DNA from: Botryococcus braunii
Lineage: Eukaryota > Chlorophyta > Trebouxiophyceae
Length of the DNA stretch: 64,000 bases
Reading direction: 5' to 3'
Assembly (NCBI GenBank): GCA_002005505.1
Contig: KV908492.1
Span: 198,914 to 262,913, forward strand
Notes under the pieces: generated by a model
What the model was told of the DNA's origin: nothing
Seen by the model: only the letters and a program-made list of their open reading frames with translations
Databases searched by the model: none
Shown: positions 30,135 through 64,000 of the stretch, piece by piece
Layout of the letters: the number at the start of each line of letters is the position of its first letter
Position numbering within the stretch: the stretch's first letter is position 1
Made by a program: the position numbers and the translations under genes

Positions 30135-30177
30135 CTCCCCCATGACTGAAGGGGACAATATTCATGTAGACTTGTGT

Positions 30178-30551: not shown

Positions 30552-30552
30552 A

Positions 30553-30873
30553 TTACTCCATCCCAATCCCAGCCCTCAATTTCTGGAATTGCACTTTAGG
30601 CAACGCTTTGGTGAACATGTCCGCCAGATTTGATGCAGAATCCACATAGAAGGGGCTGATTGATCCTTGCTCCACTTCCTGCCTGACTCTGTGGTATCTG
30701 ACCCCGATGTGCTTCGTGCGCGGCGAGATCGGAATGCCCTTGATGTTGGCCAGCGCTCCCGTATTGTCGGTGTAGATCCTGATTGGCGCTGGAACTCCCC
30801 CAAAATCTGACACGAGCTTGGAGATCCACAGGGCTTCATGTACTCCGCTGCACATGGAGACAAACTCTGCCAG
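30553..30873 (-). pseudogene. Copia element Z RNase H C-terminus
   Basis: 106 codons of copia RNase H: LAEFVSMCSGVHEALW, the catalytic YTDNTGALANIKG, TKHIGVRYHRVRQEVEQG, and ASNLADMFTKAL. It differs from the X and H/K families (for example NTGA instead of NQG), so it is a third copia lineage. It is broken at about 30873, where sequence switches to element Y in the opposite orientation. A longer open frame extends into Y, but that part is a shadow. Confidence 0.88.
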
Positions 30874-32803: not shown

Positions 32804-34429
32804 TTAATTAAAAGCAGGTCCTGACACACCCAATTTAGCCCTATGCTTCTCTAATGCAGCAGATGCCAGTGGTTTGGTAAACATATCTGCTACATTTTCA
32901 GATGTAGCAACATAGACAGGGTCAATCTGCCCCCAAGCCACTTTCTCACGTGCATAATGATAGCTGATGCTGATATGCTTAGTGAACTTTGACACTATGT
33001 GATTTTTCAAGTGCTGTATAGCCCCTTGATTGTCACAGAATAGCTTGACAGTCTTCACTGTGACTCCAAGCTCTTCCAGCATACCACCCATCCACATTAC
33101 CTCCTTTACTGCCGCAGCAGTCGCAACAAATTCAGCTTCCACAGTAGTTGTAGACACTGAAGATTGCTTCTTGCTGCACCAAGACACTGCTGACTCGTTT
33201 AGAAGAAAAACAAACCCTGTGGTTGATTTTCTTCCATCCAAGTCACCAGCAAAATCTGCATCCACGTATCCCACCAACTCATTGTCACCAGAGTTAGTGT
33301 ACGTTATGCCCATTTCCTTAGTGCAATTTTAAGTACCTCAGTACTCTTATAGCACCATTCCAATGCGCTGTCGTAGGTTGCCCCCTGAACCGACTCATAA
33401 CCCCCACAGCCTGAGCTATGTCAGGCCTAGTTGTGGTAGCTAGGTATTGTAGTGATCCCACGAGCTCCAGATACCTGTGACCCTCTGGCGATGGTGTACC
33501 TGCTCCTACTTGCTCACCACCAGCCCCCAAGGGTGGCTCTGGATTTTGTGAAGTGACAAATTTGTGAAGTGACAAATTTGTTTAAACCCATGCGCCATTG
33601 GAGTATCAACATCCCTGCCTTGTGCAGGAAGTCCATACTCCTCCACCAGCCTCTCAATTTTTAATACGTTAGTCATCTTGAGGCTCCCAGTGGTCTCATC
33701 TTTGGTGATTTCACATCCCAGAAATGATTTAATCTCACCAAGATCATGAATAGAGAAACTACAAGTGAGCTTAGATTTGACTTGCTCAATGGTTTCCCCT
33801 TCCTTGCATACAATCAATAAGTCATCAACATAAGTCAGCAAGTAAACATGTGACTCATGGGATTCCTTGTTGACAAACAGTGATGAATCGCTTTTGCAGG
33901 CAGTAAAGCCAAACTTGCTAAGCTCTTCAACAAGGCGCTTATGCCACGCGCGTGGGGCCTGCTTCAGGCCATACAATGATTTCAGAAGCTTACATACTCT
34001 ACTCGAATCACCATTAGAGAAACAGGGGGGTTGAGTTACATAAACTTCCTCCTCTAAGGACCCATTAAGGAAGGCAGTTTTAATGTCTACCTGATGTACC
34101 TTCCATCCCTTAGCATTTGCCAGATTCAGAAGCACACGCCTGGATGAGTGTGTACTGACAGGAGCAAAAGTCTCAAAATAATCCACCCCTGGTCTTTGTT
34201 TGCATCCTTGTGCCACAAGCCTCGCCTTGAACCTGATTACATCCCCAAAACCATCAGTTTTAATTGCATAAACCCACTTCAGTGGGATCACCTTGGCATG
34301 GGAAGGCTTGTGACAGTATTCAAATGTCTCGTGAGACTCAATTGAGTCCATTTCCTCATTCATAGCCTCCTTCCAGTATACCCATTGAGGTGAATTCCTC
34401 GCCTCAAACCAATCGTTAGGGATTTTTAC
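32804..34429 (-). pseudogene. Element H RT-RNase H (C-terminal part of gag-pol)
   Basis: RT from FEARNSPQWVYWKEAMNEEM through the TFAPVSTHSSRRVL and LYGLKQAPRAWHK boxes to YLLTYVDDLLIV, then the connection and RNase H (YVDADFAGDLDGRKSTTGFV, FCDNQGAIQHLKNH, ATSENVADMFTKPL). At least one frameshift splits it: the frame 33506-34363 gives way near 33560, where the sequence AAATTTGTGAAGTGAC is locally duplicated, and another break lies near 33315. Its N-terminal half continues at 52390 beyond X4. It is closely similar to K. Confidence 0.9.
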
Positions 34430-35130
34430 TGTAAAAGGTTATGGGCAATGGCGTATCCTGTAAGCAAGCAGACAGGTCGTAAGTTCGTGCCTCTTCAGCT
34501 ACAGTCCTTGACGACTGTCTGCTCTTTAGACACATGCAACTGCATGAACAAGACTGGCATCCTTATGTGCCCAGTATCTTTCCAAACCAGTTCCGTTACA
34601 TGTTGATCTGTCAATGAGCATCTACACACGGATAAGCTCCTGACGGCTGAAAGCAAGTACCTTCCTATACTCAATCAAGACTCCGTCCCTTAGCTGTTTG
34701 GGAGACTTGATTGTCCACTAAGATGGTTCACTTACAAACAAGCAATCAAACATGAACACATTACCAATACACACCCTGCGTCACCGCACCTGTAAGCAAG
34801 CAGACAGGTCGTAAGTTCGTGCCTCTTCAGCTACAGTCCTTGACGACTGTCTGCTCTTTAGACACATGCAACTGCATGAACAAGACTGGCATCCTTATGT
34901 GCCCAGTATCTTTCCAAACCAGTTGCTCGACTATGCGGTGATCGCAGCTTTAATAGTCCTTTCACACTAACGCGTAATCTAAATCAGATTGTACCTTATG
35001 TTCGAAATAGACCTCATCCGAACGTGTCTTGAGGTACCTTATGTGGATAGTGGACCCGTATCCTAATAATGTACATTTGAAGATCACCTAAAGCACAAGG
35101 CATTCTATAATGTATGTTCACAACTCAACA
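34430..35130 (-). repeat. X4 3' LTR
   Basis: 701 bp, preceded on the coding side by the polypurine tract GCAAGGGGAAG. It has the same internal 133-bp direct repeat as other X LTRs. Confidence 0.94.
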
Positions 35131-35150
35131 CTTCCCCTTGCCTGCATGCT

Positions 35151-39673: not shown

Positions 39674-40122
39674 TTTAACGAAGTGAGACGTGAACTAAGA
39701 TTTATAACAAGCTAAGCAAGGGTATCAGGCAAGGGTGACACCGAAGGTAGAAATCGAAGTTCCAATCCGTTACAAGTTCGCAGCCCTCCTCACGCAGGTC
39801 GTCCGAGTCTCCAAAGAACAATATATTATGACCAATAAAGATATTTCTAGATGCCTCCCTTGTAACAGAAAACCCAAAGACAATGATAACCACCCGAGTT
39901 CCTAGTCCACCTATGCGCGGATCCGGCTACGTCGTCCCTCTACGAGATGCTCTCGCGAGCATAACGATATGGATGACGAGAGGAGACCCACTAGGATATT
40001 ACAGTCATTTTCCTACACACAAGGACAACGAGATCTACTCGTATCCCAAAGGGCACGAAGAAACATGAACTACGCGCACATCCTACGTGAGACGCGTCGC
40101 GCTGACGCGGCATCTCACTACA
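39674..40122 (-). repeat. G3 3' LTR
   Basis: 449 bp. The U3 end carries an imperfect palindrome (GTGAGA...GCGTC/GACGC...TCTCAC) that could form a hairpin. A polypurine tract AAGGGGGGGAGTA (complement of 40123-40135) precedes it. Confidence 0.93.
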
Positions 40123-40801
40123 TACTCCCCCCCTTATTCCTGTGCGTCCCCGCGCAGAAGGCAGAGCGCAACAACAAACAGACAAGACAAACAAAGGAAC
40201 AAGACCTTCCAACATGCGGAGACTCAGACTTAGACCTACGGGCAACCCGCCTCCCGTGTTGCCAGACCCCAGCCGAATGCTGCGTATCGGGGTCCCCACC
40301 ATAATGCAATAAGAACAAGGATCAGGCATGACTAACAGAACAAAAGACAAAACACTGAGAGAAAAACGAAAGTCCACATGATGAACAGCCAAAATGAGAC
40401 ACAAGGGCAGAGCTAAAAGTCCAGATGTCCAAAAGTCCAGAGTCCAAGGGGAGTCCAATTTCCACATATAGTCCAGTATTACGCCAGTATTGCACCATAT
40501 TGATCAGGTGTGGTAGTGAAGTGAAAAGGCCATACACCTAATGTGCACAAAAATCTATCCAGGTAAGGGACCCATGGTCAACCCTACCGGGTAAGGCAGC
40601 CTTACCCTAGCCTATCCAAAGTCCATATGGCCATACAGAGAGACCCCTCCAAGGAGGGCCAACCGGTCGACGGGACCCTAAGGGTGGACCCTAGGAGTCG
40701 TGCCCTTGGGAGGCAATGGCGGGAGCCCGTGACTCTCTCTGTACTCTTCCACTTTCTTGTGGCAACAACGCGTGACCTGTGCAAGTTATTTCCAGCTATC
40801 C
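40123..40801 (-). other. G3 3' noncoding/degenerate C-terminal region
   Basis: Contains degenerate integrase C-terminal sequence near 40800-40920 (an IVDHKPLTGERGR-like stretch where a chromodomain would be expected) and about 650 bp of untranslated sequence up to the polypurine tract. It is present near-identically in G3' (49809-50487). Confidence 0.65.
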
Positions 40802-41350
40802 TCATTTGGCTCGTTCGGATCGTCCAGAGTGCGGCCGCGTTCGCCAGTGAGTGGCTTGTGATCCACAATGCCACCACACCCGGGATCCACGATACATCCA
40901 CACCCATGTCCTTAACAATTGTGCTAGAGTATAAGCATCAGCATTCATGGTTGTAGCAGCAAAATGAGCACACTTGCTAAGCCTATCCACAACAACCCAA
41001 ATCGCATCATGTCCACTTGGGGTCTTTGGGAGGTTAGTAATAAAGTCCATAGACACACTTTGCCACTTCCTTGCTGGTATTTGTAAGGGGTGAAGAAGAC
41101 CAGCAGGCAAAGTATTCCGAGCCTTGACTCGTTGACAAGAGTCACAATGAGCAACATAGGCTTTGACATCCTCATACATTCCCGGCCAATACCATTCCCT
41201 TGTTACAAGCTCGTACATGCGAGTTACTCCAGGGTGACCAACATGAGGTGGATCATGTAAAGCTTCCAAAATTCCACGTCGTAGGTTCTCCACGACAAGT
41301 TCCCCATCTTTCCTTTTCCTCAAACAATGCAGGAACATATTTCCGTCCAT
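40802..41350 (-). pseudogene. G3 integrase, internally deleted
   Basis: HHCC finger (HPGVTRMYELV ... HCDSCQRVK) and the first catalytic Asp (SMDFITNLP). After DAYTLAQLL the sequence jumps to out-of-frame C-terminal remnants, so the second Asp and Glu of the catalytic core are deleted. G3' has the same deletion, so it existed in the shared parent. Both copies must have moved using integrase supplied in trans. Confidence 0.87.
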
Positions 41351-42866
41351 TCCTCTCCCAAAAGCCTCCCTTTAGACTAACCTTCCTTCTATTCGCACGC
41401 GCTGCCAACCACGGATCGTATGTGTAAGCCTTCTCAAGTTTGCCAAGTAGGGATTCGTACCCATCGGTCTCGCGGGTAAGCTCACTCGGGCTGGCCAACC
41501 CGATTTGCTCCATCGTGCCGAGGGAGCTTGGGGTCTCGTGAGCGGGCCCCGGGAGCGTGACCTTGGGGACCTTGCGGACCCGAGCTGTGAGGGTACCCTC
41601 GACATCCCGGCTGGAGGGGGTGAGGGAGTCCGGACTGGTGCGCCGACGCTTGCGCCGGAGGGCAGCCCCGGCCACAGCAGCCCCATTGTCCCTCCCCCCA
41701 GGTCCAGGGTGTTGAGTGAAGTGACACCTGGAGAGCGGATCCGCAATGTTGGTCTTGCCCGGTTCCCATACCCATTCAATCTCAAACTCCTGCAGGCGCT
41801 CGGCCCACCGAGCCCTCCGAGGACTAAGCCCCACCTGTTGACCCAAGAAGGTGTTGCACTTGTGATCCGTCACCACCGTTACTGGCTTACCTAACAAATA
41901 ACATCTCCATTCCGTGAGAGCATACACTACAGCCAATAACTCCCGTTCCGTGGCACTGTAGTTCCTCTCGCTTGCTCCCAACTTTTTACTGAAATACGCA
42001 CAAACCTTCCCATCTTGAAATAGCACAGCTCCCACGCCGTAATCGCATGCATCGCACACTACCTTAAATGGCCGACGTACGTCCGGGAGTGTTAAGATAG
42101 GGGCACTTACCAAAGCTTCCTTTATGTTGTCAAATGCTTCCTGTTGTTCCTGTCCCCACTTCCAAGGTGCTTTTGCCCTAGAGAGAGCTGTCAATGGGGT
42201 TGCCAGGATACTGTAGTTCTGAATAAACTTTCGAAAGTAATTAGACAACCCAAGAAACCTCCTAACTTCCGTTACGTTTGTGGGCGTAGGCCACTCCTGC
42301 ACCACCTTGACTTTATCCATATCCACTTCCAACCCATTTTCCCCAATGATGTGTCCCAAGTATTTCAATTGTTTCTCAAAGAAAGAGCATTTGACAAGTT
42401 TTGCCAGGAGTTGGTGTTCGCGTAGACGGGTGAAAACTCTGTCCAACTGCAGAAGGTGCTCCTCTTCCGTTTTGCTATAAATGAGCACATCATCCAAGTA
42501 TACAACCACAAAGCCTTCCCTTAATAAGTCGTGAAAAACCTCATTCATAAGCCGTTGAAATGTCGCGGGCGCGTTGGTCAAACCAAAGGGAAGTACAAGA
42601 AATTCGTACAAGCCAAAAGGGGTCCTGAAGGCAGTTTTAGGCACGTCCTCCTTGCGAAGTCGCACTTGATGGTACCCAGACAACAAGTCCAAGCTCGAAA
42701 ACACCTTGGCTCCCTTAAGCCTATCCAACAGATCGTCAATTCTGGGGAGAGGGTACCTATCCGAGATGGTAATTTTATTCAGGGGACGGTAGTCTATTAC
42801 CATACGCAAACTTCCATCCTTCTTTCTAACAAACAAAACAGGTGATGCAAATGGTGAGCAACTTGG
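41253..42866 (-). pseudogene. G3 RT-RNase H (C-terminal segment)
   Basis: Downstream of the solo [47 protein letters not shown] (catalytic YLDD), and RNase H PFKVVCDACDYGVGAVLFQDG ... DHKCNTFL ... WEPGKTNIADPLSR. The frame ends at 41253 through a frameshift shared with G3'. The RT is joined upstream across the insertion to GLIRPS at 43342. Confidence 0.9.
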
Positions 42867-48330: not shown

Positions 48331-49357
48331 TGAACTGGTGGACATCACCGGGGAGGAAGCCTCAAGTGAGGCCGACCTGGCGGACACCGACAAACCTATG
48401 GACGACACCCCCGTCGTCACAAAACCCCCCAGTAGTACCGCACCTTGGAAGTGGGGACAGGAACAACAGGAAGCATTTGACAACATAAAGGAAGCTTTGG
48501 TAAGTGCCCCTATCTTAACACTCCCGGACGTACGTCGGCCATTTAAGGTAGTGTGCGATGCATGCGATTACGGCGTGGGAGCTGTGCTATTTCAAGATGG
48601 AAAGGTTTGTGCGTATTTCAGTAAAAAGTTGGGAGCAAGCGAGAGGAACTACAGTGCCACGGAACGGGAGTTATTGGCTGTAGTGTATGCTCTCACGGAA
48701 TGGAGATGTTATTTGTTAGGTAAGCCAGTAACGGTGGTGACGGATCACAAGTGCAACACCTTCTTGGGTCAACAGGTGGGGCTTAGTCCTCGGAGGGCTC
48801 GGTGGGCCGAGCGCCTGCAGGAGTTTGAGATTGAATGGGTATGGGAACCGGGCAAGACCAACATTGCGGATCCGCTCTCCAGGTGTCACTTCACTCAACA
48901 CCCTGGACCTGGGGGGAGGGACAATGGGGCTGCTGTGGCCGGGGCTGCCCTCCGGCGCAAGCGTCGGCGCACCAGTCCGGACTCCCTCACCCCCTCCAGC
49001 CGGGATGTCGAGGGTACCCTCACAGCTCGGGTCCGCAAGGTCCCCAAGGTCACGCTCCCGGGGCCCGCTCACGAGACCCCAAGCTCCCTCGGCACGATGG
49101 AGCAAATCGGGTTGGCCAGCCCGAGTGAGCTTACCCGCGAGACCGATGGGTACGAATCCCTACTTGGCAAACTTGAGAAGGCTTACACATACGATCCGTG
49201 GTTGGCAGCGCGTGCGAATAGAAGGAAGGTTAGTCTAAAGGGAGGCTTTTGGGAGAGGAATGGACGGAAATATGTTCCTGCATTGTTTGAGGAAAAGGAA
49301 AGATGGGGAACTTGTCGTGGAGAACCTACGACGTGGAATTTTGGAAGCTTTACATGA
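48331..49357 (+). pseudogene. G3' pol remnant: linker joined to RNase H
   Basis: A segment of the protease-RT linker (EQAELVDITGEEASSEAD ... VTKPPSST) is joined directly to the start of RNase H (APWKWGQEQQEAFDNIKEAL, VVCDACDYGVGAVLF, WEPGKTNIADPLSR). Protease and RT catalytic domains are deleted, so the copy cannot replicate alone. The frame ends at 49357 with the same frameshift as G3. Confidence 0.9.
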
Positions 49358-49808
49358 TCCACCTCATGTTGGTCACCCTGGAGTAACTCGCATGTACGAG
49401 CTTGTAACAAGGGAATGGTATTGGCCGGGAATGTATGAGGATGTCAAAGCCTATGTTGCTCATTGTGACTCTTGTCAACGAGTCAAGGCTCGGAATACTT
49501 TGCCTGCTGGTCTTCTTCACCCCTTACAAATACCAGCAAGGAAGTGGCAAAGTGTGTCTATGGACTTTATTACTAACCTCCCAAAGACCCCAAGTGGACA
49601 TGATGCGATTTGGGTTGTTGTGGATAGGCTTAGCAAGTGTGCTCATTTTGCTGCTACAACCATGAATGCTGATGCTTATACTCTAGCACAATTGTTAAGG
49701 ACATGGGTGTGGATGTATCGTGGATCCCGGGTGTGGTGGCATTGTGGATCACAAGCCACTCACTGGCGAACGCGGCCGCACTCTGGACGATCCGAACGAG
49801 CCAAATGA
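49260..49808 (+). pseudogene. G3' integrase, internally deleted
   Basis: The same truncated integrase as G3: HHCC finger and SMDFITNLP present, remainder of the catalytic core absent, out-of-frame tail to 49808. Confidence 0.87.
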
Positions 49809-50487
49809 GGATAGCTGGAAATAACTTGCACAGGTCACGCGTTGTTGCCACAAGAAAGTGGAAGAGTACAGAGAGAGTCACGGGCTCCCGCCATTGCCTC
49901 CCAAGGGCACGACTCCTAGGGTCCACCCTTAGGGTCCCGTCGACCGGTTGGCCCTCCTTGGAGGGGTCTCTCTGTATGGCCATATGGACTTTGGATAGGC
50001 TAGGGTAAGGCTGCCTTACCCGGTAGGGTTGACCATGGGTCCCTTACCTGGATAGATTTTTGTGCACATTAGGTGTATGGCCTTTTCACTTCACTACCAC
50101 ACCTGATCAATATGGTGCAATACTGGCGTAATACTGGACTATATGTGGAAATTGGACTCCCCTTGGACTCTGGACTTTTGGACATCTGGACTTTTAGCTC
50201 TGCCCTTGTGTCTCATTTTGGCTGTTCATCATGTGGACTTTCGTTTTTCTCTCAGTGTTTTGTCTTTTGTTCTGTTAGTCATGCCTGATCCTTGTTCTTA
50301 TTGCATTATGGTGGGGACCCCGATACGCAGCATTCGGCTGGGGTCTGGCAACACGGGAGGCGGGTTGCCCGTAGGTCTAAGTCTGAGTCTCCGCATGTTG
50401 GAAGGTCTTGTTCCTTTGTTTGTCTTGTCTGTTTGTTGTTGCGCTCTGCCTTCTGCGCGGGGACGCACAGGAATAAGGGGGGGAGTA

Positions 50488-50936
50488 TGTAGTGAGATGC
50501 CGCGTCAGCGCGACGCGTCTCACGTAGGATGTGCGCGTAGTTCATGTTTCTTCGTGCCCTTTGGGATACGAGTAGATCTCGTTGTCCTTGTGTGTAGGAA
50601 AATGACTGTAATATCCTAGTGGGTCTCCTCTCGTCATCCATATCGTTATGCTCGCGAGAGCATCTCGTAGAGGGACGACGTAGCCGGATCCGCGCATAGG
50701 TGGACTAGGAACTCGGGTGGTTATCATTGTCTTTGGGTTTTCTGTTACAAGGGAGGCATCTAGAAATATCTTTATTGGTCATAATATATTGTTCTTTGGA
50801 GACTCGGACGACCTGCGTGAGGAGGGCTGCGAACTTGTAACGGATTGGAACTTCGATTTCTACCTTCGGTGTCACCCTTGCCTGATACCCTTGCTTAGCT
50901 TGTTATAAATCTTAGTTCACGTCTCACTTCGTTAAA
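50488..50936 (+). repeat. G3' 3' LTR
   Basis: 449 bp, preceded by the polypurine run AAGGGGGGGAGTA (50475-50487). Confidence 0.93.
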
Positions 50937-51285
50937 CAGACTGCAAAATGAAATGTTTTACTGCTGCGTTCTCTGCGGTCTTAGGCATAGCTGTCTCCAA
51001 CGCTCCCATTGCTCCTTTTTGCATTGCGCAGGACTCCAGCTCTTCACGCCAGGCCCTGAAATTAGTGCGATCAGCCTTCAGCTGCGTAGACATCTTGGGA
51101 TTGGAGGAGTTCATCGTGTATGCATACGAGCTGGCTGCAGTGCCTCCAGTGGTCTGTCCTGACTGTCCAGCTCCTGAGGAGGCCGTGCTGCCTCCTGCTG
51201 GTGTTGCCATAGTCTCTGTACTGCTGGGATTACTTTCAGAAACCTTGCTTTGGGAACGAGTTTGAGGTCTGGTCATACACTTCAC
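50937..51285 (-). pseudogene. X4 gag N-terminus
   Basis: ATG at 51285. Ser/Thr/Gly-rich N-terminus, then a copia gag start (STQLKADRTNFRAWREELES, where the W region resembles the usual N-terminal copia gag signature) to AVKHFILQSV, cut by G3'. Continues at 46721. Confidence 0.87.
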
Positions 51286-51688
51286 TTGCTCTCACAGCGT
51301 TCAGCCTGACACAGCTGGTTTAAGTATACCCTTCAAGCGTACACCACAGCACTTTCAAGTATTCCACCCTTTCGAGGTCTAGCATGTACCCTTAATATGC
51401 AAGATATGCAAAATATTCTTCAGCAATTCAATTGCCTGACCACCCGGACCTACTGACGGTCTCACGACAACGATGACGGGTGATAATCTCAGGTCACTTC
51501 ACGGAAAAAAACTTCCCAAGATATTGAAGACTCTGTCGGTAGGCCTTCTGAGTGAATATCCAGTTGTTCTTTTTTTACTTCTTCTTGCCGTCAGGCGAGT
51601 CCGTGGAAAACCCAGTACAGATGCATCCGATGATGCCATGCACTCCTGTCTGCCCTTGGCTCAGCTGGAAGGGCGTGGGCCCATAACC
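51286..51688 (-). other. X4 5' untranslated leader
   Basis: About 400 bp without coding signal between the X4 5' LTR and gag. Confidence 0.7.
51670..51688 (-). promoter_or_regulatory. X4 primer-binding site (initiator tRNA-Met half)
   Basis: Minus strand directly after the LTR reads GGTTATGGGCCCACGC. This is complementary to the anticodon arm of eukaryotic initiator tRNA-Met (...GGGCCCAUAACC), not to a tRNA 3' end. Drosophila copia and relatives prime from such a 5' half-tRNA. The LTR end itself holds GCCCATAACC, so a 10-bp hairpin with a 7-nt loop spans the LTR/primer-site junction. Confidence 0.78.
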
Positions 51689-52389
51689 TGTAAAAGGTTA
51701 TGGGCAATGGCGTATCCTGTAAGCAAGCAGACAGGTCGTAAGTTCGTGCCTCTTCAGCTACAGTCCTTGACGACTGTCTGCTCTTTAGACACATGCAACT
51801 GCATGAACAAGACTGGCATCCTTATGTGCCCAGTATCTTTCCAAACCAGTTCCGTTACATGTTGATCTGTCAATGAGCATCTACACACGGATAAGCTCCT
51901 GACGGCTGAAAGCAAGTACCTTCCTATACTCAATCAAGACTCCGTCCCTTAGCTGTTTGGGAGATTTGATTGTCCACTAAGATGGTTCACTTACAAACAA
52001 GCAATCAAACATGAACACATTACCAATACACACCCTGCGTCACCGCACCTGTAAGCAAGCAGACAGGTCGTAAGTTCGTGCCTCTTCAGCTACAGTCCTT
52101 GACGACTGTCTGCTCTTTAGACACATGCAACTGCATGAACAAGACTGGCATCCTTATGTGCCCAGTATCTTTCCAAACCAGTTGCTCGACTGTGCGGTGA
52201 TCGCAGCTTTAATAGTCCTTTCACACTAACGCGTAATCTAAATCAGATTGTACCTTATGTTCGAAATAGACCTCATCCGAACGTGTCTTGAGGTACCTTA
52301 TGTGGATAGTGGACCCGTATCCTAATAATGTACATTTGAAGATCACCTAAAGCACAAGGCATTCTAGAATGTATGTTCACAACTCAACA
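51689..52389 (-). repeat. X4 5' LTR
   Basis: 701 bp; a handful of differences from the 3' LTR. Target duplication TTTAC follows at 52390. Confidence 0.94.
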
Positions 52390-55172
52390 TTTACATTCCT
52401 AGAGGACAGGACCTCCTTCTCCTTTGCACCATTTTGGTTAGGTGATCTGACCCTTGTTGCTCCTGCTATCGCATCGTCTTTGGCAAAGTAAGATCCAGGT
52501 ATATACTTATCAGGTTGAGCAAGTGTCTCTCTAAGATCATACCTCCTCATCCCACCTCTTACCCTGTCCTGCGCCTCATCCCCACTGTCAGACTCCTGTG
52601 ATGAGCGGTCCTGATCCGAGTCACTACCGGGATCATTTTCACCATCTCCTGGCTGCTCCTGCTCATCCCCTGGGCCCATTGACTCTTCCCCTAAGACGCC
52701 TGGACCATGTGTATCCCTGTTACCACTCTCTTCCGCCTGAGCTTGTTGCCTTAGTACTTCATTGAGTCTCTGCAACACTTCTAGGTTAGCTGGTAGGATT
52801 TGGTCTTTTTCCCCTTCCAGCTTCCCTGTTCATGTCCACTGCCTCAGCAATGTCAACTGGGACAAAATCCCAGTTCTCTTCGTCTGCAGAGCTTGGCACC
52901 TGATCACAGTTTACATCACGTGGGAAATCAGGGGGCAGTTGGGTATCAGTAGAGAGAGTGTGGATACCCAATTTGTCTTCACATTTTTTGACACCTTGAT
53001 CTTATCCCCAACCAGCACTCTATATGCCTTAGATGCTGGTTCGTACCCGACAAACATTCCTGCCTCTGATCTAGGAGAAAAGGCAGACAGATCCTTGTCA
53101 GGCGTTTTGATGTATGCCAGACAGCCAAATACCCTCAAGTAATGAACAGCAGGCTTCCTGCCAAATAATAGCTCATAAGGGGTAGCGGTCTTCCCCTTAA
53201 TTGCCCTGAGGTTTAGTAACCTAACAGCAGTAGGCAGCGCTTCGGTCCACAAGCTTTGTGGAGCCTTAGCCTGTAGCAGCAACATTCTAACCTTCTCTTT
53301 CAAGGAGCGGTTAAAGCGTTCCGCCCGGCCATTTTGTTGCGGGGTATAAGGGGCAGACGTCTCGTGTCTTATCCCCTTCGAGTGAAAGAACTCACGCAAA
53401 TCTGAGTTTACAAACTCAGTCCTTCTATCAGTCCTGACAACTTTTACAGTATGGCCCGTCTGATTTTCTAAGTACAGGAGAATTGCTCTAACAGCATCAC
53501 CCACCTGAGACTTCAGGACCAATGGCCCTTGCAACACCCGCCTTTGAGAAATCATCCAGCATGGTGAGCATGTATCTCTCTCCTTCAGCACCCGGTACAG
53601 GCAGTTCACCCACAATATCCATGTGGACAATCTCTAATCGCTCTGTAGCCGTTGCCGGAGAGCGTGGGTAGCTCTCTCTAGTCTGCTTCCCCAGAACACA
53701 AACCTCACAATGTGAGTGACCATGATTGCAAGGTGATAATGACGTCTCAATGCCTTTCACCATATCTTCGGTTTGCAAGCGTTCCATGTTTTTACTGCTA
53801 GGGTGTCCTAGTCTTGCATGCCATAAGTCGTACTCTGAACACTTGTGTGCAATGCCAGCAACATGGGGCAACTTTACTGACTGACATATCACTGAGCAGA
53901 AGTATAGTCCTCTTTCTTTTGTCACTTCTACTTGAAACGATGACTTCTGACAGCAAACATGTGTGACTTCTCGTAGTGGATTTGTTGAAAAATTTAAACC
54001 ATCAACAACTCCAGCAGACACTGACATTAAATTTTCCAATGCAGTTGGAACAAATTCAACATCTCTCAATATGCATGTATTTCCCTGCTGATCCACCAAG
54101 CACACGGTCCCACATGCCTTACGCTGCGCCACGTGTTCGCCAGTGGCTAGATTTAAACCCTTTGGAATTGGATGTTATGCATCAGACGTACATCATTACA
54201 CACATGTGTGGAGGCCACAGAATCTATCACCCACTGTGAGGACAATTCACCTGAGTCAGAGGAGTATGTAGTTGCCATTCCTCCTACAATATTTTGAGGT
54301 CGCCCTCTGCCAGCCAGGATTGCAGCCCTTCTGGCGCAATCATCTTTGTACTTCTGACAATTCAGCCTGATGTGACCCTCCTCTAAGCAGAACCAGCACC
54401 CATGAAAGTTGGTAGGCACGTCATGGGGCATGCCCCTGGGTCTATTGCCATCAAACCCAGGTGCATTCTTTGGTCTAGGGGGACCAGAGGGAACAAGATT
54501 TGCAGAAGCAGAGGGAGCTTTCTCCTGATCAATGCCCAGAAACTTGGCACATGCACTGATACGAGATACAACCTCATCCTCCTCTTTCCCCACACAGGAA
54601 TCATACAAATGGGACTGACTGTGGGTAAAGGCCTTGGGAAGACAGCTAACTATACCCATGGCAAGGCGCTCCTCATCAACAGGGTGTTTGTTAGCCCTCA
54701 AACCTCTAGCCAGCTTGTACTTCATGGCCACAAATGCCATGGAAGTCTGGGCATCCTCAGTTTTACCTGAGTCAAGCAAAAAGGCCCATTTTGACATGAG
54801 CTTCTGGTTCTTTCCGCCAGTGAACTTGCCTTTCAGCCAGTCATACGCCTCCTTGGCTGAAGGCTTGTCGAGAGCTGCATCAACCCACTCATCTGGAGTT
54901 TTTTCAGTAACTAGGCTCTTAGCCAAAGCATCACCTGGTGTGTCAGGATGTTCCTCGTCCAAACACACCTTGATTTTCTTGCTACTAGCAACATTCTCTA
55001 CATCCTTCATCCATCTGAAACCATTTATGCATAACACATCAAGTGATTGGGCCAACTTCTGTGTGTTATAGACTGGGTTTAGTGGGTCTCCTGTGCTGCC
55101 TGATACAACAGCTGCAGTAACACCTGTACCAGTTGCTCCACCCGGAGCAGATGCACCAGCTGACCCACTCAT
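52390..55172 (-). pseudogene. Element H gag-protease-integrase (N-terminal part of gag-pol)
   Basis: ATG at 55172. Gag similar to K (FRWMKDVENVASSKKIKVCLDEEHPDT), zinc knuckle CWFCLEEGHIRLNC, then protease WVIDSVASTH, where V replaces G of the usual DSGAS. HHCC finger LWHARLGHPSSKN ... HCEVCVLGK, and integrase HMDIVGEL, RTDRRTEFVN, PQQNGRAERFNRSLKEK. Frame breaks occur near 54150, 53500-53600 and 52900. It ends at SSRNV, where X4 is inserted; K reads SSKNIKVPEDW at the same place, and H resumes with IPNDWFEA at 34429. Confidence 0.9.
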
Positions 55173-55653: not shown

Positions 55654-56775
55654 TGTGATCTGCAAAGATCCAAAGGTGTTATATTAATCATAAATGGTGA
55701 CTATACTCACAAGTATATCATCCATGTACTATCAGTTTGACCAAGACATACATAGTCCACAGCGTCAAACTGATGAACAATTCACGTACAGCAATTGCTT
55801 CCACAGAAGTTACTCACAACAAGTGAGAGAGAAAGAAAGCAATTCGCATGAGTCCATTCAGGAGTCGGCTTAACAAGCCAAAGAGATCGAATGACTTACA
55901 AACTACTGTCGGACGAACACACACACTAACTAGTCTTACCTGCAAAGATCCAAAGGTGTTATATTAATCATAAATGATGACTATACTCACAAGTATATCA
56001 TCCTGTGAACACACTAACACCTTTAGTTCATTGCATATGATGAACCTTATCTATAAGCACCCCTCAGCCGTCACATAGCTGACTTACCATGTACTTAATC
56101 AGTTTGACCAAGACATACATAGTCGACAGCGTCAAACTGATGAACAATTCTGCAACATTCACATACCCATATTAGTCTCTGATCATCAAAACGGCACTTA
56201 TGGCCGTGATCAAAAACATGACCGGCAGAGCCCCGACTTACCACGTATAGCAATTGCTTCCACAGAAGTTACTCACAACAAGTGAGAGAGAAAGAAAGCA
56301 ATTCACATGAGTCCATTCAGGAGTCGGCTTAACAAGCCAAAGAGATCGAATGACTGCCTGGTGGTCCGGGTTCTCTGGCTATCTGTACTCAGATCAGCGC
56401 GTGGGAAACGCGCTGTCCAGCACTGCTACTGGCCTTTTTCACGAACATTAGGACATGCTCAAGGTTCCTATCCACAGAATTTGGACCCTTATCCTACAGT
56501 AACACATTTATTAACTCTAGATGCATGTCTTCCAGCCACTAAAGGCTGGAAGGTATTTACAGCCATAGAATAAATATCTTTCAATGCATTAATACTCATA
56601 GATTGATCGTTCATAGCCATTGTCAAGATGTCTTTACCTTGAGTTAACTGCTTGGTTAACTTACAGCTAATGATTACATGTGATTGTACCTTCACGCATG
56701 CACGCACGCACGCACGTGCACGCACGCACGCACGCACGTTAATTAACATGACATAATGAAGTACAAAACCCAACA
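55654..56775 (-). repeat. H 5' LTR (same unspliced plus spliced arrangement)
   Basis: About 1122 bp. Spliced-form copy: exons A 55660-55722, B 55723-55782 (60 nt, 2-nt deletion), C 55783-55894; 45-nt spacer to 55939. Intron-containing copy: A 55940-56002, intron 1 56003-56087 (85 nt), B 56088-56149, intron 2 56150-56241 (92 nt), C 56242-56353. Exon lengths match the 3' LTR while intron lengths differ. Internal to it, GGTTCTGGGCCCAC (minus strand, about 55640-55653) resembles the X4 initiator-Met primer site with one mismatch. Confidence 0.88.
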
Positions 56776-57367: not shown

Positions 57368-58065
57368 TGTTGAGTTCTGAACATTATTATTGAATGCCTT
57401 GTGCTTTAAGTGATCTTCAGGTGTGCACTATTAGGATATGGGTCCATTAAGAACATAAGGTACCTTAAGACACGTTAGGTTGTGGACGGTTTCGAACATA
57501 AGGTACAATCTGATCTAGATTACGCGTTAGTGTGAAAGGACTCTTAAAGCTGCAATCACCGCATAGTCGAGCAACTGGTTTGGAAAGATACTTGGCACAT
57601 AAGGATGCCAGTCTTGTTCATGCAGTTGCATGTGTCTAAAGAGCAAACAGCCGTCGAAGACTGTAGCTGGAGAGGCACGAACTTACGACCTGTCTGCTTG
57701 CTTACAGGTGCGGTGACGCAGGGTGTGTATTGGTAATGTGTTCATGTTTGATTGCTTGTTTGTAAGTGAACCATCTTTGTGTACAATCAAGTCTCCCAAA
57801 CAGCTAAGGGACGGAGTCTTGATTGAGTATAGGAAGGTACTTGCTTTCAGCCGTCAGGAGCTTACCCGTGTGTAGATGCTCATTGATAGATCAACGTGTA
57901 ACGGAACTGGTTTGGAAAGATACTGGGCACATAAGGATGCCAGTCTTGTTCATGCAGTTGCATGTGTCTAAAGAGCAGACAGCCGTCGAGGACTGTAGCT
58001 GGAGAGGCACGAACTTACGATCTGTCTGCTTGCTTACAGGTGCGGTGACGATGGGTGTGTATTGG
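57368..58065 (+). mobile_element. Element Y 3' LTR, interrupted by K
   Basis: A diverged family X LTR starting TGTTGAG. Both 133-bp repeats are present, but the second is followed by GTGCGGTGACG...GTGTGTATTGG, which in other X LTRs follows only the first. This LTR therefore has at least part of a further repeat unit. It is cut at 58065 by the K LTR; the ATTGG at 58061-58065 is the expected target duplication. Confidence 0.8.
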
Positions 58066-58073
58066 TGTGGATC

Positions 58074-58323
58074 CTGCAAGATCCAGTTTAGATTTACTAT
58101 GATAAATCACAGATAAAAAGACACACACATGTGTCATCCAGATATGTGAATACTGTCAACATCAACACCATCACAAGGTGGAAGCAGTTTAACAAGTCAG
58201 GCTGATCTTCTCTTGATCTGAAACATGCATACACGATGCTAAAACACAGACAAGAGTGAATGTAGATCAGACTGTGAGTCAGGGTTTTTGACAACAAGAC
58301 GTTTCAAAAACACTACGGAATGA
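58074..58323 (-). repeat. K LTR: spliced-form leader copy
   Basis: 250 nt equal to exon A (58074-58138, 65), B (58139-58197, 59) and C (58198-58323, 126) fused at splice junctions. By eye identical to the exons of the intron-containing copy. A 43-nt spacer (58324-58366) beginning GTAATC and ending AG on the minus strand separates them. Confidence 0.93.
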
Positions 58324-58366
58324 CTTACAACGGGTAGTATGCGACACTGGTCTATCTAACGATTAC

Positions 58367-58794
58367 CTGCAAGATCCAGTTTAGATTTACTATGATAAAT
58401 CACAGATAAAAAGACACACACATGTGTCATCCTGTGCATATTAAATCCATTAGTGTCTTGCTGGTAACCATCACACGATAACTTACTTGCATGCGAACGT
58501 GCAGCATAAACTGCTTACCAGATATGTGAATACTGTCAACATCAACACCATCACAAGGTGGAAGCAGTTTAACAAGTCTGCACATTAGCCATAACATTAT
58601 TAGTATTAAGATAAATAAACAACACTTACAGCTGTTCAACTAACGTCAGCGACGAACATAAGCCTCACCAGGCTGATCTTCTCTTGATCTGAAACATGCA
58701 TACACGATGCTAAAACACAGACAAGAGTGAATGTAGATCAGACTGTGAGTCAGGGTTTTTGACAACAAGACGTTTCAAAAACACTACGGAATGA
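58367..58794 (-). repeat. K LTR: intron-containing leader copy
   Basis: Minus strand: exon C 58669-58794, intron 2 58578-58668 (91 nt, GTGAGGC...TGTGCAG), exon B 58519-58577, intron 1 58432-58518 (87 nt, GTAAGCAG...TGCACAG), exon A 58367-58431. AAGCAG precedes exon C, a further 3' splice site. Confidence 0.93.
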
Positions 58795-59204
58795 CTGCTT
58801 GAGACTTCGTTCAGTCGCTCCTAGTATTATCAGATCAGCGCATTGAATTGCGCTGTTCTGCCCCTTTTTTACGAGTTCGTAACAAAGTTGAGATTCAGAG
58901 CCTTGGAAACTGGCCCTTATCTCAATTGAGTTTATCACGTTATTACCAATTAGGATAAACTCAATTTTAATAGCCACAAACAGCAGGAAAGACTTTCTCC
59001 ACCATGTTCTTATATGCTTTATACGTTACTACTTGTGGCCATAAAGACCACTGGCTGTTCATCAAGGATTTTCCCTTGAGTTGAGTACGTGGTCAACTAT
59101 ACAGCTAATTTATTCAGGTTAGAATTGTTATCTTTGGATTGTCCTGACAGTACACAAATTCCAACAATCTTCCCATTGTACTTTCAGGACATCCCAACAT
59201 TCAG

Positions 59205-62200
59205 TTACTGCATTCCCAACATGTTACGATGCCTTTCAAACACAGCAGATGCTAGTGGTTTTGTGAACATGTCAGCTACATTTTCAGTAGTTGGCACATA
59301 TGTAGGATCAATCTGACCCCAAACCACCTTCTCTCGTGCATGATGGTAACTCACACTGATGTGTTTAGTGTGTTTAGAGACCATGTGATTTCTCAGGTTT
59401 GACACACACCCCTGATTATCACAATACATGGTTATACATGTGATCTCTTCTCCCAACTCACAGAGCATACTTCCCACCCACATGGCTTCTTTCACTGCTG
59501 CACTCACAGCAATGTATTCAGACTCCACAGTGGATGTTGCTATGGAAGTTTGCCTCTTACTTGACCAGGATACAGCAGATCCGTTCAATAGAAACACAAA
59601 CCCAGTTGTGGATTTTCTACTGTCCAGATCACCTGCAAAATCTGCATCCACAAAGCATACCAGTTCATTTTTATTTGATCCAGTATACTTAATTCCCATG
59701 TATTTGGTGCAGTTGAGGTACCTCAGTACTCTAATTGCTCCATTCCAATGGGATGTTGTTGGTTGTCCTCTAAATCTGCTCAACATCCCCACAGCTTGAG
59801 AAATATCAGGCCTTGTAGTTGTTGACAAATACTGTAGTGAACCAATTAATTCTAAATACCTGTGACCTTCTGGTAAGGGAATTCCTGATCCAATCTGCTC
59901 ACCAGTCATCCCTTTGGGAGGTTCAGGCATTTGGGTAGGCAAGAAGGAACCTGACATGGGTGTATCAACCTCCTTCCCCTGATCAGGCAGCCCATATTCT
60001 TCCACCAATTTCTCAATTTTTAGGACATTGGTCATTTTCAGAGTATGTGAGGATTCATTTATCTTGATTTCACAACCCAAAAATGACTTTATCTCACCAA
60101 GATCGTGAATTGAGAATATACTAGTCAGCTGTTGCTTAACACACTGAATGCATTCCTCATCCTCACTCACAATCAGCAAATCATCAACATATACCAACAA
60201 GTATACGTATGACTTGAATGACTCCTTGTTAATGAAGAGCGCTGGATCACTTTGACAGGCTATAAACCCAAATTTTCCAAGCTCTTCAACCAGATACTTG
60301 TGCCATGCACGTGGTGCTTGCTTCAGACCATACAAAGATCTTAGTAGCTTGCACACAACATTAGAATCGCCATTAAAGAAACAGGGAGGTTGGGCTACAT
60401 ACACTTCCTCATCCAGTGTTCCATTTAGGAATGCTGTTTTCACATCAACTTGGTGAACTTTCCACCCATTTGACGTAGCCAAATTTAACAGCACCCTCCT
60501 AGATGTGTGTGTACTTACTGGAGCGAAGGTCTCAAAGTAGTCAACACCTGGCCTTTGCTTGCAACCTTGTGCCACCAGTCTCGCCTTAAATCTGACAATA
60601 TCACCAAAACTGTCAGTCTTTAGAGCATAGACCCATTTTAAAGGAATAATTTTGGCATCAGAGGGTCTCTCACAATATTCAAACGTTTCATGAGAATCTA
60701 TAGAATCCATCTCTTCATTCATGGCTTCTAACCAATATGGCCACTGTGGGGATTTTTTTGCCTCCCACCAGTCCTCTGGAACCTTGATATTCTTGGATGA
60801 TAATTTCACTTGCTCTTGTGCACCATTTTGATTTGGGGAAATTATTTCTGATGCATATGTGACTGGCGCTTCCCCAATGTGGTATGTACCCGGAACATAC
60901 CTGTCTGGTTCTGCCAACGTTTGCCTCAGTTCGTATCTACCCCCACCATTCCTGGCACCACCTTGCATTTCCTCAAGTGAGTCACTGGTTACAGCAGGAG
61001 GTTGATTATCTGATTCTTCACCTGAACTGTCTGATCCATGTGACACTTGATTTTGCATGTTCCCAGTCCCCACTACTCCTTCCCCTGGAGCTCCTGGACC
61101 AGATAACCCACTCGGACCACTCTCTTCCGCTGTTCCCAAGCCTCTCAGGATATCATTCATCCTGTGCATGACTTCCAAGTTAGCTGGGAGAGTTGGGGCA
61201 ACACCCCTTCCAGCTTCCCTGTTTAATTCCAGTGCACCAGTGAGGTCTACCGGTACAAAATCCCAATCATCCCCATCATCAGTGCATGGAACTTGATCAA
61301 AATTTATCTCCTGGGAGACTTCAGCAGTGAGAGAATTACTGGGAGTGAGAGCATGAATTCCTAATTTGTCTTCAAAGAATTTGACGTTCTTTGACACCTT
61401 TACCTTGTTCCCCACCTTAACTCTGTAGGCCTTTGATGCTGGCTCATATCCCACAAACATCCCAGGCTCAGATCTGGCTGAAAAGGCTGACTGATCCTTG
61501 TCTGGTATTTTGATAAACGCCAAACATCCCCACACTCTCAAGTAGTGTACTGATGGTTTCCTCCCAAACAGCAGTTCATAGGGAGTGGCTGTCTTCCCTT
61601 TTACTGCTCTGAGATTTAACAACCTAACAGCTGTTGGAAGTGCATCTGCCCACATGCTCTGTGGAGCTTTTGCCTGCAAAAGAAGCATTCTAACTTTCTC
61701 CTTCAAGGATCTGTTAAAACGTTCTGCTCTTCCATTTTGTTGAGGGGTATAAGGAGCAGACGTTTCATGTCTGATCCCTTTAGACTGAAAAAAGTCAAGC
61801 AAGTCAGCATTTACAAACTCACTTCCCCTATCAGACCTAACCACCTTTACATTGTGATTAGTCTGATTTTCCAAGTACAGGATGATTGTTTTAACAGCAC
61901 CACCCACCTGGGACTTGGAAGTCAATGCTACGGATTCACCAGCTCTAGAGTAATCATCTAGTACTGTGAGCATGTAGCGTTCACCCTCAGCTCCTGGGAT
62001 TGGTAGCTCACCAATCACATCCAAGTGCAACAGCTGAAGACGTTCAGTTGCTGATACTGGGGATCTTTGGTAGCTCTCTTTAGTCTGCTTGCCCATCACA
62101 CACACATCACACAGCGAATGACCATGTAAGCAAGGAGACAGAGATGTAGCTATTCCCTTCACCATATCTTCAGTTTGCAGTCGTTCCAGGTTTTTACTTC

Positions 62201-63605
62201 CTGGATGTCCTAAGCGTTGATGCCACAAATCATATTCAGAGCATTTGTGAGCATATCCAACACTATGTGAGAGCTGGATTTTGCAGCACAAGCAGTAAAC
62301 GAAATACAGTCCTCTTTCTTTTCTGACTTCAGAGATGAATTGTGAGGCATTACTGTACATACTGATAATCTCTCCATGTGAATTGTTTGTAAACTGAATC
62401 CCATCTGTTACTGCACTTGAGACCGACAACAAATTTTCAATTGCAGTAGGTACATATTCAACATTTTTAAGTTTACACATGTTCCCCATTTCATCTACTA
62501 AGCACACAGAACCACATGCCTTGCGTTGTGCAACATGTTCACCAGTTGCCAAATTTAGACCCTTTGGCTGTGTATACCAGTGAATGTTTTGCATTAGTCT
62601 AACATCATTGCATATGTGTGTTGAGGCTCCTGAGTCTACCACCCATCTAGAGAATGGATTACCTGAGTCAGAAGAGTCCCCCAATGCAATACCTCCAACT
62701 GGATTGGCTTGATTCTTGCGTGCTGAAATGAGGGCAGCCCTTTTTTCTTTCTCAGCTATAAGTTTTGGACACACGTTTCTGGTATGTCCATCTTCCAAGC
62801 AGTGCCAGCAGCCCCTGAAGTTGTCAGGCAGATCTTCTGGCATCCCTGGTGGCCTGGATCCTGGAGCGTTCCTGGGGCGAGGGGGACCTCTGACTGGATT
62901 GATAAGATTGACTGATGGTGAGGGGGCCTTAAATTCATCAATTCCAAGCAACCTTGAACATGCCTGAATATTGAGTGTGACCTTGTCCTCATCCTCACCA
63001 AGACAGGAAGTGTAGAGATTTGATTTGGCATGGTCAAAATGCTTGGGCAAACCCTCTACAATCCCCATTTTTAGCCTACCATCAGAGCATGGGTGATTAT
63101 TGGCTTGTAGACCTCTTGCAATCCTGAACTTCCTGGCAACATATGAATGGTACTCCTGACCCTCATCGATACGCCCATAGTCCAAGACCTTGGACCATTT
63201 CCTCATTAACTCCTCATTGTGGCCACCAGTGAACTTGCGCAGCAGCCAGTCATAGGCCTGCTTTGCGTTTGGCATGTCCAATGCCCTGTCCACCCAAACG
63301 TCAGGAATTTTCTCAGTTAGAAGACTCATAGCAAGAGAGTCTCCTGCTGTATTAGGATGCTCTTCGTCTAGACACATCTTAATACGTTTGCTATTAGCAA
63401 CATTCAGAACATCCTTTTGCCATCTAAAACCGTTTTCACAATCCAGGTCTAACGCCTGAACCAGTTTTAGATTGGTATAAACAGGGTTTGTCTGATCTAT
63501 GCTATTACCTGACTGGGCAGACTGACTAGTATTGCCAGCTGAGGGTTGATTTACTTGTGGATCAGATGGATTACCTGGGGTAGGGTTCGTAGCCAATGTT
63601 GCCAT
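59205..63605 (-). CDS. Element K copia gag-pol polyprotein, intact
   Basis: An uninterrupted 1466-aa Ty1/copia polyprotein that would make capsid and, after self-cleavage, protease, integrase and RT/RNase H for retrotransposition. Gag spans 1-265; zinc knuckle CWHCLEDGHTRNVC 266-279; protease VVDSGASTH 322-330. Integrase HHCC finger is about 462-502, and its triad D529, D592 and E628 is in LHLDVIGEL, RSDRGSEF and GRAERFNRS. An acidic/Pro linker follows. RT spans about 950-1200 with YVDD 1139-1142. RNase H spans about 1318-1450 (FVDADFAGD, YCDNQG, ENVADMFTKPL). Start chosen at the ATG at 63605, whose gag N-terminus aligns with H. All catalytic residues are present, so it may be functional. Confidence 0.95.
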   Translation of the reverse strand: MATLATNPTPGNPSDPQVNQPSAGNTSQSAQSGNSIDQTNPVYTNLKLVQALDLDCENGFRWQKDVLNVANSKRIKMCLDEEHPNTAGDSLAMSLLTEKIPDVWVDRALDMPNAKQAYDWLLRKFTGGHNEELMRKWSKVLDYGRIDEGQEYHSYVARKFRIARGLQANNHPCSDGRLKMGIVEGLPKHFDHAKSNLYTSCLGEDEDKVTLNIQACSRLLGIDEFKAPSPSVNLINPVRGPPRPRNAPGSRPPGMPEDLPDNFRGCWHCLEDGHTRNVCPKLIAEKEKRAALISARKNQANPVGGIALGDSSDSGNPFSRWVVDSGASTHICNDVRLMQNIHWYTQPKGLNLATGEHVAQRKACGSVCLVDEMGNMCKLKNVEYVPTAIENLLSVSSAVTDGIQFTNNSHGEIISMYSNASQFISEVRKERGLYFVYCLCCKIQLSHSVGYAHKCSEYDLWHQRLGHPGSKNLERLQTEDMVKGIATSLSPCLHGHSLCDVCVMGKQTKESYQRSPVSATERLQLLHLDVIGELPIPGAEGERYMLTVLDDYSRAGESVALTSKSQVGGAVKTIILYLENQTNHNVKVVRSDRGSEFVNADLLDFFQSKGIRHETSAPYTPQQNGRAERFNRSLKEKVRMLLLQAKAPQSMWADALPTAVRLLNLRAVKGKTATPYELLFGRKPSVHYLRVWGCLAFIKIPDKDQSAFSARSEPGMFVGYEPASKAYRVKVGNKVKVSKNVKFFEDKLGIHALTPSNSLTAEVSQEINFDQVPCTDDGDDWDFVPVDLTGALELNREAGRGVAPTLPANLEVMHRMNDILRGLGTAEESGPSGLSGPGAPGEGVVGTGNMQNQVSHGSDSSGEESDNQPPAVTSDSLEEMQGGARNGGGRYELRQTLAEPDRYVPGTYHIGEAPVTYASEIISPNQNGAQEQVKLSSKNIKVPEDWWEAKKSPQWPYWLEAMNEEMDSIDSHETFEYCERPSDAKIIPLKWVYALKTDSFGDIVRFKARLVAQGCKQRPGVDYFETFAPVSTHTSRRVLLNLATSNGWKVHQVDVKTAFLNGTLDEEVYVAQPPCFFNGDSNVVCKLLRSLYGLKQAPRAWHKYLVEELGKFGFIACQSDPALFINKESFKSYVYLLVYVDDLLIVSEDEECIQCVKQQLTSIFSIHDLGEIKSFLGCEIKINESSHTLKMTNVLKIEKLVEEYGLPDQGKEVDTPMSGSFLPTQMPEPPKGMTGEQIGSGIPLPEGHRYLELIGSLQYLSTTTRPDISQAVGMLSRFRGQPTTSHWNGAIRVLRYLNCTKYMGIKYTGSNKNELVCFVDADFAGDLDSRKSTTGFVFLLNGSAVSWSSKRQTSIATSTVESEYIAVSAAVKEAMWVGSMLCELGEEITCITMYCDNQGCVSNLRNHMVSKHTKHISVSYHHAREKVVWGQIDPTYVPTTENVADMFTKPLASAVFERHRNMLGMQ

Positions 63606-64000
63606 GCCTGGGAATGTAACACCTGCACCTTTGCTCTGTACCGTCTTCTAAATCATTCACAATTGAGGCGTTCGTCTCAGTGTCACGTCCCTTTTATCGG
63701 GTTCCCGTTACCCAAGGTAGACAAATTTTTTTCCTGATTGAAAATTAGAGATTTTGCACTACGAATAGTAATAGCTGGGCTGCGGCTTCTGTATCAAGGT
63801 AAATTATGCGGATCGCCACTCAAGGATCCGGCCTTGAGACCTGGGTTACCGGATTACTGGATTACTGGTTCTTACGATTGTGCGATTCGAAGGCTGGAGG
63901 TTACAATCGGAGACTGCTGCGGTTCAAGTCTCGGATGTTATAGTCGGGGATCCGTAGTCGGGGTCACCGGCTTACGGCCTATCGCAGGCCGGGCTATCGG
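63606..64000 (-). other. K 5' untranslated leader
   Basis: Noncoding sequence upstream of K gag. The 5' LTR, beginning on the plus strand with a TGTGGATCCTGCAAG-like sequence, is not reached before the window ends. Short repeated GGATTACTGG/GGTTACCGG elements occur near 63840-63865. Confidence 0.65.

Follow-up and report, generated by a model that had tools for sequence, protein, structure and literature searches.

The long terminal repeats (LTRs) of two copia families of Botryococcus braunii, K and M, carry one leader twice, first as a copy interrupted by two introns (copy U) and then as a fused copy from which both introns have been removed exactly (copy F). The architecture is spread through the genome; the two copies vary together across insertions and their divergence lies near the age of the element, and renewal of F from U at each jump is therefore well supported. 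The best explanation, which we consider quite probable, is that a Ty1/copia LTR here keeps two spliceosomal introns by having its transcription start shifted into what is formally U3.

The case from which the analysis started is a K-family LTR on the minus strand of the window, the whole 64-kb stretch of DNA that was analysed (Table 1). It runs from a U3 of 370 nt through exon A, intron 1, exon B, intron 2 and exon C into a linker, the fused A-B-C and a short tail. The original prediction had described this layout, with two GT-AG introns of 87 and 91 nt and a fused copy that was the exact sum of identical exons; both introns can be read in the sequence, and A, B and C recur letter for letter in F (252/252 identical). 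Its boundaries have shifted, from exons of 126, 59 and 65 nt, a gap of 43 nt and a fused copy of 250 nt to 128, 59, 65, 41 and 252 nt, because the shared leading AG had been assigned to the linker; likewise, the leader pair does lie inside the proposed interval, 58066..58800, but the LTR is longer. A twin of this LTR lies 17.4 kb away on the same contig (C164:274380), is 99.8% identical to it over 1103 aligned nt and is flanked by the matching 5-bp target duplication, CCAAT.

Table 1. Coordinates in the window of the LTR parts and elements discussed in the text (a slash marks an exon boundary)
Feature	Position	Strand	Remarks
K LTR, 3' LTR of a Ty1/copia element	58066..59166	-	1101 nt, TGTTGG...CACA; from LTR pair alignment
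TATA-like GATAATAC	58824..58831	-	28-35 nt upstream of copy U; putative promoter
Copy U, exon A	58669..58796	-	128 nt; first base is the putative transcription start
Intron 1	58578..58668	-	91 nt, GTGAGG..TGCAG
Copy U, exon B	58519..58577	-	59 nt
Intron 2	58432..58518	-	87 nt, GTAAGC..CACAG
Copy U, exon C	58367..58431	-	65 nt; terminal TTGCAG, then GT (CAG/GTAATC)
Linker	58326..58366	-	41 nt; start of putative intron 3
TGTAA across the linker/copy F junction	58325..58329	-	putative poly(A) signal
Copy F, A-B-C fused without introns	58074..58325	-	252 nt; ends TTGCAG/G, putative intron 3 acceptor
LTR tail GATCCACA	58066..58073	-	in the 5' LTR followed by primer-binding site TGGTTATGGGCCCACG
gag-pol open frame of the K element	59205..63647	-	Pfam; integrase before RVT_2
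M-family 5' LTR	55654..56775	-	same architecture as K; upper end approximate (BLAST match)
Parts of that M LTR	U 56355-55940, linker 55939-55897, F 55896-55660	-	tail ATCACA, then primer-binding site
M-family LTR, locus L086	31634..32778	-	same architecture; ends approximate (BLAST match); U from 32342, F from 31876
J-family LTR	34429..35133	-	135-nt exon twice, 0 mismatches; 197-nt spacer starting GT; TGTAACGG before copy 2
J-family 5' LTR	51688..52392	-	same pattern as other J LTRs; then primer-binding site GGTTATGGGCCCAC
J-family LTR split by the K insertion	57368..58065	+	second copy again followed by spacer

The K element is a member of Ty1/copia (Pseudoviridae), as seen from its domain order (Pfam rve at 535-635, RVT_2 at 987-1231, E 1.1e-62), the TG..CA ends of its LTRs and its 5-bp target duplications. 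None of the Penelope features looked for (a Penelope reverse transcriptase, GIY-YIG, absence of integrase) was found in it, since it has an integrase and RVT_2. In the search with its reverse transcriptase the two top rows were from the green alga Micractinium (45-47% identity) and the closest match by identity was a metagenome protein (P0003, 76%), with further matches in land plants, an oomycete and an arachnid; no relatives of P0003 were found in viral contigs, and Rfam at gathering thresholds gave no match. Directly after the 5' LTR stands ATGGTTATGGGCCCACG. The sequence CAATGGTTNTGGGCCCA, with at most one mismatch, has 158 matches in the genome against one for a reversed control, and the primer site may be that of initiator tRNA-Met; no tRNA gene was found in the 64-kb window. 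The element is itself inserted in a J-family LTR (57368-58066; locus L001, 2595-2931), a host LTR that seems to hold three leader copies and two spacer units.

The original prediction would have been called into question by a lack of the paired structure in other members of the family, and it survived this test. We scanned the 176-Mb assembly (989 contigs) and read 98 LTR loci, namely 40 scored K places (150 candidates), 40 scored M places (178 candidates), 13 loci from a list of exon-A pattern matches, chosen as unpaired or of another subfamily, and five from the 158 primer-site matches, outside the K and M places known by then; the exon-A list had supplied 15 picks, two of which (C477 and C721) were already scored K places. 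All nine pieces of the architecture are present at 90% coverage or more in 78 of the 98 loci, 42 of K type and 36 of M type; truncation, a contig end or rearrangement accounts for the other 20. Three loci (L008, L024 and L083) fail the 90% rule by a single piece each, and one (L065) is scored complete although its F, and only F, has about 32 additional nt between exons B and C, including a repeated GGATGACACA. The five LTRs picked solely by their primer-binding site all have the architecture (one M-type, four K-type). A product of chance or of faulty assembly, to which we assign next to no probability, is rejected by the many loci and by the target duplications, which among 16 LTR pairs are exact in 13, agree in four of five bases in one, are unmatched in one and fall in a masked stretch in one; moreover, two further LTRs in the window, of the M family, show the same order as K, with a few U-F differences.

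The K and M LTRs are 58% alike over 834 aligned columns. Introns 1 and 2 appear to be spliceosomal, judging from their GT..AG ends and branch-point-like sites. Intron 1 starts with GT in 41/42 K and 36/36 M loci and ends with AG in the same numbers (41/42 and 36/36), and for intron 2 the counts are 42/42 and 35/36 for GT and 40/42 and 33/36 for AG. A CTAA stands near the 3' end of introns 1 and 2 in 38/42 and 32/42 K loci, respectively, and in 35/36 M loci for each. Starts of exon A, with at most two mismatches, number 73 for K and 219 for M in the genome. Adjacent starts lie 417 nt (2) or 465-471 nt (28) apart in K (30 spacings among all 73 starts) and 449-463 nt apart in M (42 spacings among 100 of the 219 starts), so that none of these 72 adjacent spacings belongs to a spliced or half-spliced U; the spacing of 417 comes from a deletion spanning the end of intron 2 (L070 and L071).

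A few LTRs depart from the standard order. U3 is joined straight to F, with no unspliced copy, in L027, L059 and L088; the unspliced unit stands twice in tandem before F in L026 (C228) and L029 (C264); and three exon-A starts 460 nt apart lie at C89:211295-212237. Unspliced RNA, or strand transfer to the first A, had seemed to us to account for the double-unit and fused-only LTRs, which we dropped as proof because unequal recombination between two A copies yields both forms. With only one unit in the partner LTR of L026 (L025), recombination must be among the sources, and a recombination after insertion is the likely origin of the double unit in L026; the fused-only LTRs may stem either from recombination between A copies or from strand transfer to the first A.

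The variants of the two copies bear on how these came to be alike. Defining an informative column as one whose minor allele is present in at least two insertions, we found 76 such columns in 32 K insertions; in 52 of them every such allele occurs in both copies, and the carriers of informative alleles have them in both copies 580 times, in U only 22 times and in F only 24 times. Two loci (L018 and L019), which we read as one duplicated segment with exon A rearranged in U, were dropped from these counts and from those of mismatch along the leader, and are kept in the counts over 42 K loci. Subfamily indels are also common to U and F, as in L069 and L074, where exon A measures 129 nt in both copies. 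U is exactly equal to F in 11/42 K and 5/36 M LTRs, and the mismatch between them is even over A, B and C (1.3, 1.0 and 1.2% in K; 0.7, 0.8 and 1.0% in M), which argues that the whole of F is reset. A single capture, in which F arose from one ancestral spliced transcript and was from then on passed down as DNA, as was U, would account for the exact absence of introns; we rejected it, and hold it to be highly improbable, since the copies would then have diverged along with the families after the split of K and M. An origin of the U5-side copy in spliced RNA is thus upheld, and more strongly than it was first claimed, as what looks like a renewal at transposition and not one past event.

The divergence between U and F within LTRs averages 0.74% (16 elements), and that between the two LTRs of an element, outside the exons, averages 0.67% (16 pairs), with a slope of 0.92 and a Spearman coefficient of 0.49 (p 0.056, 16 pairs). 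The coefficient is 0.42 (p 0.13) without two awkward pairs and 0.44 (p 0.28) for M alone; it was 0.76 (p 0.0007) in a version with exon sites on both axes and 0.36 (p 0.15, 17 pairs) in one whose flanks were misaligned. Small counts make the rank test weak, and the argument lies in the equal size of the two divergences. These tests omit L076/L077 (27/492 differences, 49 gaps), which probably do not stem from a single insertion, and L061/L062, partners that are truncated. Together, co-variation and a U-F divergence that approximates element age indicate that F is remade at transposition.

An ordinary LTR could be proposed instead, with transcription starting at F, F serving as a normal R-U5 that is copied from F, and U lying passively in U3, the likeness of the two copies being kept up by occasional conversion or template switching. 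Most cycles would then need no splicing, and some observations fit such a history: F-only variants are common to several loci (M column 108; K columns 270 and 296), and the pair L054/L053 has U-F differences although its LTRs are identical outside the exons. However, inherited F-only variants are what this explanation predicts, and the K carriers with an allele in both copies far outnumber those with it in F only. U-F divergence is also close to LTR age, and the explanation gives no reason for F starting exactly where U starts or for a homogenisation confined to exons. We regard it as unlikely. Family M bears less on the choice, as it is a young burst whose columns cannot decide co-variation (28 insertions and eight informative columns, with seven carriers in both copies, seven in U only and eight in F only). 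When each copy was compared with its own partner and with the same-type copies of other insertions, the partner was closer for 55, farther for 14 and tied for 11 of the 80 K copies, and closer for 6, farther for 35 and tied for 31 of the 72 M copies. The variant in M column 108 is an A>G in the F of three loci (L031, L050 and L086). L050 and L086 share U3 sites with L093, which does not have the A>G, and may be kin, and L031 is not near them; our tentative reading is that the A>G is recurrent.

Candidate signals lie at the ends of the leader. The pentanucleotide TGTAA spans the junction of linker and F in 74/78 LTRs (39/42 K and 35/36 M), being absent from it in L021, L023, L026 and L044, and stands at the junction before U in 1/78 (1/42 K, 0/36 M); this one case is the double-unit LTR L029, where copy 1 follows a linker. 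In the chlorophytes studied, with the exception of Pyramimonas, UGUAA is the top pentanucleotide upstream of poly(A) sites, generally lies 15-20 nt upstream of cleavage and is reported to be restricted to late-branching Chlorophyta (PMC1868727); it is the major signal in Chlamydomonas (PMC4025486). That the genome is of a chlorophyte fits its 35 chlorophyll a/b-binding matches and one piece that aligns with light-harvesting chains in the PDB, of which the best row is LHCI-2 and most others are LHCII or chlorophyll a-b binding. Exon C of U is followed by a donor-like sequence (CAG/GTAATC in 39/42 K and CAG/GTAAGA in 36/36 M loci), and F, which starts exactly at the start of U, ends TTGCAG/G in the form of an acceptor. 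A branch-point-like YTRAY precedes this putative acceptor in 35/36 M but only 3/42 K loci, and the weak match in K counts somewhat against an intron there. The A+T content at -36..-25, counted without L026 and L029, is 0.70 at copy 1 versus 0.57 at copy 2 in K and 0.67 versus 0.68 in M; it separates the copies weakly in K and not in M, and the proposed promoter therefore rests on its position.

From these signals we infer the start site, the cleavage and poly(A) site, a third intron and the transfer point of a replication cycle. RNA would start at exon A of copy U, and introns 1 and 2 would be spliced, with the donor after C (CAG/GTAA) joined to TTGCAG/G at the end of F. The third intron would thus consist of the linker and the old F, about 293 nt, its removal would also take the upstream poly(A) signal, and the resulting RNA would begin A-B-C-GATCCACA-primer site. 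At the other end, the RNA would be cleaved about 15-20 nt past TGTAA, at a point between a few and about 17 nt into F, leaving a very short terminal repeat R that matches the beginning of A. Reverse-transcribed into minus-strand strong-stop DNA, the spliced leader could then transfer to the 3' R, a step modelled on standard LTR reverse transcription, and be extended through the linker and the unspliced U, giving a new LTR composed of U3, unspliced U, linker, fresh F and tail. U would keep its introns because it lies in U3, for which the unspliced 3' end of the RNA serves as template. The model gives no explanation of why the introns of the 3' U stay in the template RNA.

Deletion of direct repeats by reverse transcriptase is well known, and renewal might accordingly proceed without splicing of a third intron, from an RNA of the form A-B-C-linker-A-B-C-tail in which template switching removes one of the two repeats. 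The weak branch-point match before the K acceptor would suit such a route. It predicts, though, that A-B-C-linker-A-B-C should sometimes follow U, with exon-A starts about 290 nt apart, and none of the 72 adjacent spacings has that value; it also predicts a gradient of renewal along F, whereas the mismatch is even. The CAG/GT donor conserved after C (39/42 K, 36/36 M) counts against it as well. We accord it only a small probability and favour splicing of the third intron.

A simpler version of the arrangement is found in family J, whose seven LTRs in the window contain a single 135-nt leader exon twice, with no mismatches between the copies in five and three and four mismatches in the other two; several of these LTRs sit in long near-identical repeats and are not independent. 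Long direct repeats, 99.5% identical, occupy 1-2544, 9584-12125 and 13246-15039. GT comes after copy 1; after copy 2 comes the LTR tail, except in the LTR cut by K, where spacer follows; TGTAACGG precedes copy 2 in 7/7 and copy 1 in 0/7, and about 31 nt before copy 1 stands TATTAAA in six and TCTTAAA in the remaining one. Six J-like stretches, 70-77% identical to J, occur in the loci, and three of them have the repeat and TGTAA before copy 2, namely L082 (135/135), L058 (94%, 137 nt) and L078 (98% over the 61 nt before it is cut off); in L072 the copy is single, and L085 and L096, both of them end pieces, lack a second one. By its sequence, J appears to follow the same logic as K and M with one exon. 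The end of the J LTR, GCCCATAACC, and the adjoining primer-binding site GGTTATGGGC are complementary (e.g. 34429-34460), and this pairing could possibly form a U5 stem.

Other retroelements share the window. An open gag-pol frame at 17700-21059 (plus strand) contains a retroviral-type protease and RVT_1; between protease and reverse transcriptase, at residues 697-802, it also matches the Pfam family Dam (DNA N-6-adenine methyltransferase, PF05869; E 1.8e-12). A neighbouring element has a 449-nt repeat (39674-40122) that we read as a Gypsy LTR from the nearby RVT_1 and gag domains; at E 1e-10 it shows no internal repeat. Parts of Gypsy-type elements form inverted 2.5-kb stretches (39670-42170 and 48440-50940) that are 99.96% identical, and a tandem pair of about 204 nt with 93-96% identity lies at 30153-30555.

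We think it likely that these elements make up a class of LTR retrotransposons in which spliceosomal introns survive passage through an RNA intermediate: U3 stores the unspliced leader, R-U5 receives a fresh spliced copy in each cycle, and the old copy is removed as part of an intron that also contains the upstream poly(A) site, in at least two copia lineages of one genome (K/M with three exons, J with one). Perhaps the same strategy extends to copia elements throughout the green algae. LTR retroelements are expected to lose introns on passage through spliced RNA, and the K/M LTR suggests a way round this, in which the intron-bearing leader is placed in a region templated solely by the unspliced 3' end of the RNA and the spliced part is rebuilt in every round. 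If this is true, each insertion holds a DNA record of splicing and probably of the 5' and 3' ends of the RNA; the arrangement also points to an answer to an old difficulty, the occurrence of a poly(A) site at both RNA ends, in that the first one is spliced out.

Among known elements, Drosophila copia, also of Ty1/copia, uses an internal piece of initiator tRNA-Met as its primer, and the K primer site TGGTTATGGGCCCA looks the same; the Drosophila copia LTR is not known to have introns or a leader duplication. Among the titles and opening abstract lines of the best matches in the open-licence literature on intron-bearing LTRs we found no LTR with such a paired leader, an absence that is not proof. 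Penelope-like elements resemble K and M as retroelements with repeated ends and reported introns, but belong to another class, with pseudo-LTRs from tandem copies and GIY-YIG, and the parts of the reports consulted describe no paired unspliced and spliced leader (PMC3846280, PMC11167929). The same copying step is used in the split-intron retroviral vectors of Ismail et al. (2000), in which a donor placed between U3 and R of the 3' LTR reaches the 5' LTR by reverse transcription and the intron is active in the new copy only; these vectors are engineered, and neither a fused exon copy nor renewal in each cycle is mentioned in the portion of the source consulted (PMC3182074). The barley Ty1/copia elements BARE1 and BARE2 likewise have several start sites in the LTR and a spliced class of RNA, but removal of the BARE intron alters the coding frame, and the spliced RNA is kept from replication, in keeping with the need of retrotransposons to avoid packaging and reverse transcription of spliced RNA (PMC3735527). 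Unlike in BARE, the RNA with the spliced leader seems to be the very species that is reverse transcribed in K and M.
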